DNA of 64,000 nt from Pseudomonas hygromyciniae (lineage in GTDB: Bacteria > Pseudomonadota > Gammaproteobacteria > Pseudomonadales > Pseudomonadaceae). Location of the stretch: assembly GCF_016925675.1 (NCBI RefSeq), contig NZ_CP070506.1, forward strand, positions 5,578,501-5,642,500, in the 5' to 3' direction. The first letter of the stretch is position 1. Each line of letters opens with the position of its first letter. This document shows, one piece after another, positions 14,469 to 15,775 of the stretch. The notes beneath the pieces are model-generated. The model was not told the origin of the DNA. It saw only the letters and a program-made list of their open reading frames with translations, and did no database searches. A program made the position numbers and the translations under genes.

Positions 14469-14555
14469 AAATGTGGGAGCGGGCTTGCCCGCGATGGCGG
14501 TGGGTCAGGCAACAAATGTATTGGCTGAACCACCGCAATCGCGAGCAAGCCCGCT
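14469..14555. repeat. REP doublet, right arm split by the IS110 element
   Basis: The left REP is intact (tgtgggagcgggcttgcccgcg). The inverted right REP reads gcgagcaagcccgct and then stops at 14555; its remaining ctcccacatt is found at 15724-15733 beyond the insertion sequence. Joining the two pieces restores the standard REP end. Confidence 0.9.
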
Positions 14556-14570
14556 TGTATGTTTAGACTT

Positions 14571-14750
14571 GAAGGGGTGGGCGGCGACTAAAAGCCCGAT
14601 TCCGACTCTAGCCAGTACGGACCGTGGGAGACTTCTCGTCCCGCCCTTTCTACCCTAAGCGCCGATAAGGAATTCATCGGGAAAACCGACAATAGAGGCA
14701 AGCCAGCGCTGGGATAGACCCCGACAAGCCCTTAAACCCTAGCTCCGAGG
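14571..14750 (+). ncRNA. Candidate IS110 bridge RNA in the left end of the element
   Basis: gggcgg (14579-14584) plus gac (14586-14588) can pair with gtcccgccc (14638-14646). Inside, tccg (14601-14604) pairs with cgga (14618-14621), leaving an internal loop. Its 5' side contains aagcccg (14592-14598), identical to the 7 bases left of the CT core in the target REP. Its 3' side contains gtgggag (14624-14630), the reverse complement of the CT core plus 5 bases to the right. A second, weaker region has ataga (14692-14696) and acaag (14724-14728), which may read the element ends. The exact RNA ends are not determined. Confidence 0.65.
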
Positions 14751-14757
14751 ATTAGTT

Positions 14758-15720
14758 ATGACAATCCTTACTTCACCAACGGTTGTGGGTATCGATGTGG
14801 CCAAGGCCGAAATCGTTGCCTACCGCGAAGACCTCAACGCCACTCAAGCCATTGCCAACGACCGCGATGCTCTTGGTCGCTGGCTCAACACATTACCTGC
14901 CAACAGCTCAATTGCCCTGGAAGCCACCAGCACTTACCACTTGGACACAGCTGAACTCGCCCATGAAATAGGACATCGGGTTTACGTTGTAGACGCTTAT
15001 CGGTTGAGCCATTACCGCGAAAGCATTGGCCAGCGGGCGAAAACCGACCCTTGTGATGCACGTTTATTAGCGCGCTACCTGAGCAGCGAGCAGAAACGGC
15101 TACGGCTCTGGAGTCCACCTCCGCAGGCTTACAAGTTATTGAAAAGCTTGCTACACCGACGTGCAGAGCTTATCAACTTGCGTGTAAGCCTTACACTGAG
15201 CTGGTCAGGCGAACCGCTTTTGAAAGACGAGTTGGCCCAGCAGTTAAAGTCCTTCAAACAAGCTGAGCAGGTCATTCAGAAGTTGCTGCACAAGGTCAGT
15301 AAAGAGGCGGGCATCACCGAAAATATCAAGCGCTGCAAAGCCATTGAGGGAGTGGGTGATCTTACGGCTACTGGTCTAGCGACAGCCTTCATGCGCGGTC
15401 AGTTCGCCAATGGCGATGCATTCATCGCTTTCTTGGGGATGGATCTGAGACCAAAAGATTCCGGAAAAAAGGCCGGCCCTCGGCACTTGAGTAAAAAGGG
15501 CGATTCAGAGTTGCGGCGCCTTGCTCACAACGCAGCGATGGCCGCTAGCCGATCTGCGACCTGGAAACCGTACTACGAGTCTTACCTGGCCCGGGGACTG
15601 GCAAAGACCCAAGCCCTGGTGATCCTCGCCCGCAAGCTCTGCCGGGTGGCATTCGCGCTGATGAAAAACCAGAGCGAATACCAGCCGAACTTAAAGTTGC
15701 AGGGTTTACCTGCAACATAG
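14758..15720 (+). CDS. IS110-family transposase (DEDD recombinase)
   Basis: A 320-residue transposase. The N-terminal RuvC-like domain carries the four acidic residues: D13 (GIDVAK), E55 (ALEATS), D97 and D100 (TDPCDARLLARY). A predicted helical linker follows, then a C-terminal domain with AIEGVGDLTATGLA, FLGMDLRPKDSGKK (candidate nucleophile S235) and SKKGDSELRRLAHNAAMAA. Length and motifs are intact, so the enzyme may be active. GAGG lies 9 bases before the ATG. The stop TAG is part of a TAGAAT box next to the right end. Confidence 0.93.
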   Translation: MTILTSPTVVGIDVAKAEIVAYREDLNATQAIANDRDALGRWLNTLPANSSIALEATSTYHLDTAELAHEIGHRVYVVDAYRLSHYRESIGQRAKTDPCDARLLARYLSSEQKRLRLWSPPPQAYKLLKSLLHRRAELINLRVSLTLSWSGEPLLKDELAQQLKSFKQAEQVIQKLLHKVSKEAGITENIKRCKAIEGVGDLTATGLATAFMRGQFANGDAFIAFLGMDLRPKDSGKKAGPRHLSKKGDSELRRLAHNAAMAASRSATWKPYYESYLARGLAKTQALVILARKLCRVAFALMKNQSEYQPNLKLQGLPAT

Positions 15721-15775
15721 AATCTCCCACATTATTTTTCAGCGTTTGGAAGGTCGGGCTCGGCTATAAGCCGCT

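Follow-up and report, generated by a model that had tools for sequence, protein, structure and literature searches.

In a 64,000-nucleotide stretch of the Pseudomonas hygromyciniae genome (NZ_CP070506.1; hereafter the window) an IS110 element interrupts a REP sequence, and this locus raises the question of what directs the element to that position in the repeat. IS110 elements in Pseudomonas REPs have been known since 2006 (PMC1525189). All copies of ISPpu10 and ISPpu9 in P. putida KT2440 were reported to lie in REPs, at the same REP position and with a 2-bp repeat (PMC1525189), and for ISPpu9 a long, structured 5'-UTR has been described along with two small RNAs, Asr9 and Ssr9, presented as regulators (PMC8450116). 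The bridge RNA (PMC11208160, PMC11208158) and the seekRNA (PMC11187229) were described in 2024; no guides for ISPpu9 or ISPpu10 are described in the portions available to us of PMC1525189, PMC8450116, PMC11208160 and PMC11187229.

We report that guides and insertion sites change together across 45 genomes and that the insertions of a given genome are found preferentially in the guide's own REP class. The element is an IS110-family insertion sequence, and its upstream non-coding end almost certainly encodes a bridge RNA aimed at REP. Moreover, the target guide of this Pseudomonas lineage is probably fast-evolving and has been rewritten repeatedly toward the most abundant REP class of the host, in what would be a reduced bridge RNA that lacks a 5' stem-loop and in which the left target guide (LTG) is seldom fully paired with the core.

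Collection of insertions and definition of guides

A scan of the genus identified relatives with E values of 1e-20 or below in 76 of 398 genomes, with at most five matches scored per genome, and 127 stretches (up to five copies per genome) were fetched from among the matches listed. Before row selection, 176 left ends were found by pattern in 217 loci. Loci from named records (L006-L023), some of which duplicate counted genomes, were left out of the counts except for the copies of G079. Loci refetched after a first look were counted once and 12 duplicate rows were dropped, which merged distinct G079 copies into two rows; the right half-target of these two was entered from a separate reading without the right-end pattern. 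No left end matching the pattern was present in genome G355 or in a few stretches, L191 and L213 among them, and these were not counted. The covariation set thus defined comprises 142 distinct insertions in 45 genomes. Guides were defined by position, as the nine letters preceding the U and the hairpin motif, and hence blind to the target. The structure alignment consisted of 49 distinct left ends with L087 omitted. REP classes were counted in 46 genomes as GCCCG, GCTCG, GCCAG or GCCGG before CTCCCAC.

The element, its transposase and the split REP

The element occupies window positions 14556..15723 without its two flanking CT cores, as judged from its copy count in the genome, its ends and its flanks (features here and below lie on the forward strand, except for the REP pair, which has no strand assigned). 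It starts with TGTATG at 14556, and its right end, ACATAGAAT, runs to 15723. Five copies are present in the 6.29-Mb genome, and a 320-aa reading frame is complete in three of them; the own-genome copies L004 and L005 each carry one additional base, with the frame broken or altered.

The gene for this transposase/recombinase (14758..15720; 320 aa) matches PF01548 (69.5 bits, cutoff 29) and PF02371 (55.1 bits, cutoff 21.3), and its product aligns with the transposases of ISCro4 (9t56; E 7.9e-24) and IS621 (8wt6; E 2.8e-23), which are the only solved structures that it matched by sequence. In this alignment the DEDD tetrad and the serine of IS621 appear to be matched by D13, E55, D97, D100 and S235. 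D102 and S241 are catalytic residues of IS621 (PMC11208158). Among 120 listed relatives of the transposase two are named ISPpu10 by their sources (74% and 62% identity), and the element is ISPpu10-like in the sense of these names, as distinct from a comparison with the ISPpu10 reference sequence; what it shares with ISPpu10 and ISPpu9 is an IS110 transposase and insertion into REPs. Non-coding DNA amounts to 202 bp upstream of the gene and 3 bp downstream of the stop codon, the latter being the right end AAT (15721..15723) as read from the junction. In the plasmid collection 1781 records carry IS110 relatives, every one of them below 60% identity, where records close to the element's own genome were perhaps excluded.

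The preliminary description had the REP sequence AAGCCCG-CT-CCCAC split at its CT by a 1,170-bp IS110 element, and both the letters and the CT-to-CT length of 1170 bp agree. The left half-target AAGCCCG, which is the left part of the split REP, lies at 14547..14553 and is followed by the left copy of the CT core (14554..14555); on the other side of the element the right copy of the core (15724-15725) and the right half-target CCCAC (15726-15730) together span 15724..15730. An intact inverted REP begins at 14473 and, jointly with the element-split REP, forms a pair (14473..14555) that we take to be REPIN-like. The name REPIN follows PMC8450116. The wild-type target of the element reads AAGCCCGCTCCCAC. 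All five copies in the genome are inserted in the split site GCAAGCCCG/CT/CCCACA, and the exact 12-mer GCCCGCTCCCAC has 496 sites in the genome vs four for a reversed control pattern. The CT core on both ends and the site-specific insertion agree with membership in the IS110 bridge-RNA group.

Target loop and its guides

A stem in the 5' non-coding end (GGGCGG/CCGCCC), enclosing a loop capped by a TCCG/CGGA hairpin, had been noticed in the sequence, and it is present as described (14579-14584 with 14641-14646, and 14601-14604 with 14618-14621). In its full length the target-loop stem has GGGCGG c GAC (14579..14588) as its 5' strand, which was delimited from the fold and from paired changes among relatives, by eye; its 3' strand, GTCCCGCCC (14638..14646), was delimited from the fold and paired changes. 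The linker U and the capping hairpin (helix 2), which has one bulged A on its 3' arm, span 14601..14621. The two 7-mers that the loop had been said to hold are likewise there: AAGCCCG, identical to the left half-target, at 14592..14598, and GTGGGAG, the reverse complement of CT plus the right half CCCAC, at 14624..14630. The former is the LTG as defined by position, which covaries with the left half-target; the latter is the right target guide (RTG) as read across the 142 insertions. The two guides are opposite in sense, the LTG corresponding to the top strand and the RTG to the bottom strand of the target. This order, with the LTG before and the RTG after the hairpin in the target loop, is that of IS621 (PMC11208160, PMC11208158). 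When the left end was dinucleotide-shuffled 100000 times, AAGCCCG turned up in 5019 shuffles, GTGGGAG in 974, and AAGCCCG followed by GTGGGAG within 50 nt in nine.

In the first IS621 structure four bases of the RTG pair with the target (PMC11208158) vs seven, including CT, here, and longer RTGs have been noted for other orthologues (PMC11208160). A second difference concerns the core. Every guide pairing of IS621 includes the core (PMC11208160), whereas the two core-facing letters after the LTG are AT in the window (14599-14600) and, over the 45 genomes, AT in 32, CA in nine, CT in three and AA in one. The CT core is therefore part of the left-guide pairing in 3/45 genomes; we treated its inclusion as a detail of IS621 and not as a criterion for the IS110 family. 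Positions 14631..14632 correspond to the handshake guide of IS621, and the first of them is A in 142/142 insertions. With the role taken from PMC11208158, this A could pair with the T immediately left of the donor CT.

The LTG and the RTG partly pair with each other in the minimum-energy fold, as is to be expected from a target that forms one half of a palindrome. Such mutual pairing (window 14592-14630) might be a form of self-inhibition of the free RNA.

Guides and insertion sites change together

If the left-end RNA is the guide and REP its programmed target, as had been proposed, guide and target bases should co-vary in Pseudomonas relatives, and they do. The 142 insertions in 45 genomes carry 17 different left 7-mers, and these follow their left half-targets. 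On average the LTG matches its own left half-target at 6.09 of 7 positions in the better of two registers, compared with 5.12 after permutation, and at 5.77 vs 4.79 in a fixed register; in both cases 0/50000 permutations were as high. When the target was slid by -6 to +2 bases, the mean match fell from 5.87 to 3.02 or less. In the better register 65 of the 142 insertions match at 7/7, 54 at 6/7, 17 at 5/7 and six at 4/7 or fewer.

The right side varies less: GTGGGAG is found with CTCCCAC in 130/142 insertions, and another seven have one mismatch of seven. Genome G093 has the RTG GTAGGAG, and its sites read CTCCTAC in 5/5, i.e. guide and target have changed together; covariation of the right guide refers to this one changed genome. 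A target loop whose guides covary with the insertion site is expected of the IS110 bridge-RNA group, and the programmed-target reading is supported by this covariation as well as by the paired changes in the stem and the hairpin.

It was stated beforehand that relatives which keep the same guide and are inserted at other sites would speak against this reading. Such cases are rare: in 6/142 insertions four or fewer of the seven left bases match, and one of these, in G185, lies off the REP left half. The poorly fitting guides are those of G185 (2/7), G090 (3/7), G212 (4-5/7) and G065, G244 and G300 (5/7 each), and in G213 the left guide matches at 4/7 and 2/7 at two of four sites. The G185 element (L083) sits at TTTGGTAG/CT, and the last 16 bp of its left flank (CTCCCACATTTGGTAG) are identical to the first 16 bp of its right flank, a pattern that recombination of a former neighbouring copy might leave.

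On the transposase tree, which covers the 44 of 45 genomes with a usable protein, a minimum of 21 changes is required for the left 7-mer and a minimum of 20 for the majority target. Five kinship-free pairs differ in guide class; the target follows the guide in 4.8 of them and opposes it in none, with a median P of 0.06, too few pairs for significance.

Could the transposase alone recognise the folded or palindromic REP, such that the guide-like letters are a relic of a REP captured at insertion? An earlier proposal had the transposase recognise REPs (PMC1525189), and nearly all sites are indeed palindromic REP halves. The guides are nevertheless opposite in sense, flank a covarying hairpin at constant positions and track the targets in 45 genomes, and a relic would not set GTAGGAG exactly at the place of GTGGGAG in the genome with CTCCTAC at 5/5 sites. 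We consider a captured relic so improbable as to be nearly negligible and favour a guide that names its target.

Choice of REP class within genomes

The agreement could also arise from a host having one type of REP only, so that the guide matches the site and yet does not choose it. We compared the REP class of each insertion with the REP counts of its own genome. Among the 142 insertions 93 were testable; excluded were 38 with guides outside the four classes, nine with targets outside them and two with another right half. A fifth REP pattern, GTTCGCTCCTAC, has 147 sites in G093 and at most 15 in any other genome. One class does dominate many genomes, and the match expected from the per-genome REP abundance is as high as 60.9/93. 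The observed number of insertions in the guide-named class is 84/93 (P 2e-10, with insertions treated as independent and each genome's REP counts as background), and this argues against a guide without choice.

In 27/32 genomes whose guide names one of the four REP classes, that class is also the most abundant of the four, compared with a mean of 12.7 and a maximum of 24 after permutation; the exceptions are G099, G204, G213, G295 and G366. Two of them point in different directions. In G099 the guide class makes up 20% of the counted REPs and 1/3 insertions is in that class, as might be expected where a guide does not choose. In G366 the guide class makes up 2.3% of the counted REPs and was nonetheless hit in 1/3 tested insertions and in 3/5 of all insertions. 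Moreover, a mere preponderance of one REP type leaves unexplained why letters of the host REP are present in the RNA at all, and we regard it as extremely unlikely to be the whole explanation. In the five kinship-free pairs the commoner REP of the host follows the guide in 4.0, opposes it in none and is the same in 1.0, again too few for significance. The data are consistent with a guide that selects the REP class, and small guide changes would be retained if they suit the REP type that prevails in the host; in this way the element would follow an abundant landing site.

Structure of the left end

Folding of the left end with covariance from relatives had been suggested as a check, and the outcome is divided: the stem and the hairpin show paired changes among relatives, but the stability of the fold of this element's left end is ordinary. 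Folded alone, the left end of the element in the window has no unusual stability (z -0.95; 36/200 shuffles as stable). In the 49 aligned left ends the capping hairpin (helix 2) is paired in 99.7% of cells and shows two-sided changes in two of its six pairs; for a central hairpin before the donor guides (14677..14689; helix 4) the figures are 89.3% and two of four pairs. The outer part of the target-loop stem changes in pairs between sub-groups, as seen by eye (GGGCGGGAC/GTCCCGCCC, GGGTGGGAC/GTCCCACCC and GGAGGAGGG/CCCTCCTCC). A possible long-range closing helix (helix 1) would join CTTGAAGGGG (14568..14577) and CCCCGACAAG (14719-14728); this CTTG..GGG / CCC..CAAG pairing is present in 87.8% of cells, and 7/10 of its pairs are invariant. 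Jointly the four named helices are paired in 93.0% of cells vs at most 39.1% with slid partners, a score that is favoured by the structure having been derived from the same sequences and the helices having been named by hand.

The distance from the core to the target-loop stem is 21-23 nt in 49/49 left ends. A 5' stem-loop of the IS621 type was not found in these ends: the first 22 nt past the core are unfolded in 46/49 and reach -1.7 kcal/mol in three. Thus, unlike IS621, the predicted RNA has no 5' stem-loop, and the possible closing helix would link the 5' leader to the region of the right donor guide (RDG). We did not take the 5' stem-loop as family-defining, because the published IS110 structures are diverse (PMC11208160).

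A search of the left-end region against Rfam gave no bridge-RNA match; five hits far below the cut-offs were treated as chance. An RNAalifold consensus of the 49 left ends gave a poor structure, which we ascribe to the offset of two stem variants, and it was not used. In L087, the sole match for genome G090 among the matches listed, the donor half of the RNA is deleted between the target loop and CAAG and the target loop is retained (by eye), which makes L087 a natural example of a copy that has lost its donor loop.

Structured 5' ends of this kind may have another role. The 5'-UTR of ISPpu9 is structured and accompanied by Asr9 and Ssr9 (PMC8450116), and by this precedent the left end could serve chiefly to regulate the transposase mRNA, as its 5' leader and together with antisense RNAs. 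Letters that track the insertion site are not required in a leader, and we find it very unlikely that regulation is the main role; leader and guide roles are mutually compatible. The bridge RNA reading, which accounts for the tracking letters, is retained below.

Relation to IS621, seekRNAs and other IS110 elements

The element shares with IS621 a DEDD and serine recombinase, a left-end non-coding region, a CT core and a REP target (PMC11208160, PMC11208158), and differs in having approximately 28% identity to IS621-named transposases. By analogy with IS621, the element would excise as a circle and the bridge RNA would bind the DEDD/serine recombinase; the target loop would then pair with both REP strands and the donor loop with the joined ends, with strand exchange at CT. 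The RNA also resembles the seekRNA of IS1111/IS110 elements in being a non-coding-end RNA that matches both target strands (PMC11187229). ISPa11 of P. aeruginosa likewise targets REP, but it is of the IS1111 type, its non-coding region is downstream and its guide order is reversed (PMC11187229).

At most the guide RNA of this particular element may be undescribed, as had been suggested: the mechanism, the targeting of Pseudomonas REPs by IS110 elements and single redirections are in print, the latter for ISEc11/ISXne4 and for a relative of ISEc21 (PMC11187229). The lineage may also be part of the published IS621 covariation set, given the 20% identity cut-off used there (PMC11208160). In a literature search of titles and abstract openings, among the matches listed and with few subscription journals or preprints covered, we found no paper on a bridge RNA of the ISPpu9/ISPpu10 type or on REP-tracking guides. 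The mechanism is thus already known from IS621 and the seekRNAs; less ordinary are the apparent repeated rewriting of the guide in step with the host's REPs, the seldom complete pairing of the LTG with the core and the missing 5' stem-loop.

IS110 recombinases are under development for programmable insertion into genomes, and pairs of guide and target found in nature show which pairings work. On related proteins this lineage offers 17 different left 7-mers of natural origin, guides in two registers, a single rewritten RTG and tolerated mismatches, and guide evolution can here be read against the abundance of repeats in the host.

Element ends, junction and donor guides

In 50/50 distinct junctions of the joined ends the joint is preceded by CATAGAAT and followed by CTTGTATG; these junctions were collected using those motifs as the pattern, and the G079 element, found without the right-end motif, carries the same right end. 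As in IS621, the left end may have, judged by position, an 8-nt left donor guide (LDG) and a CAAG-type RDG. The putative LDG, ATAGAGGC (14692..14699, from the alignment columns), is 6/8 like the right-end donor ATAGAATC. At these fixed columns the match to the donor is 7/8 in 17, 6/8 in 28 and 5/8 in four of the 49 left ends, with a mean of 6.27 vs 4.16 or less for slid columns. Its placement depends on the relatives, since a nearby 8-mer of the window, ATAGACCC, matches equally well. The putative RDG, CAAG (14725..14728), is the complement of the left-end donor CTTG and invariant in 49/49, and doubles as the 3' side of the possible closing helix. When the donor was scored anywhere in the left end, its own donor ATAGAATC matched at 6-7/8 in 48/49 left ends vs 5-6/8 for the donor of another clade, a modest edge.

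This other clade consists of distant IS110 elements of the same genus (L229-L234 and L236), i.e. the seven of eight loci that fit the pattern, L235 being the one that does not. They share the left end CTTGTAT with the element in the window, and differ from it in protein (26-30% identity), in their donor (ACGGTATC vs ATAGAATC) and in having a predicted 5' stem-loop in 7/7 (-8.5 to -17.4 kcal/mol). In all seven an 8-mer identical to the donor ACGGTATC is present in the left end (8/8 in 7/7). This supports the assignment of donor guides and falls short of proof for the element's own family.

A scan for a promoter across the junction gave at best 8/12 consensus letters, at a site that the integrated right end also has. 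By eye, TTTACC in the right end resembles a -35 element and precedes TATGTT of the left end by 17 nt; the scan prefers the other weak site, and we do not claim a junction promoter.

Finally, some features of individual copies are recorded. In L012-L017, L085 (G079), L218 (G009) and L219 (G389) approximately 150-250 bp of additional DNA follow the transposase match and precede the right end. In G065 (L011/L081/L150) two copies of the element lie near each other in the same orientation. A palindrome (e.g. TTGCAGG...CCTGCAA) at the 3' end of the gene, before the right end (window 15680-15723), was seen by eye in many of the 50 junctions.
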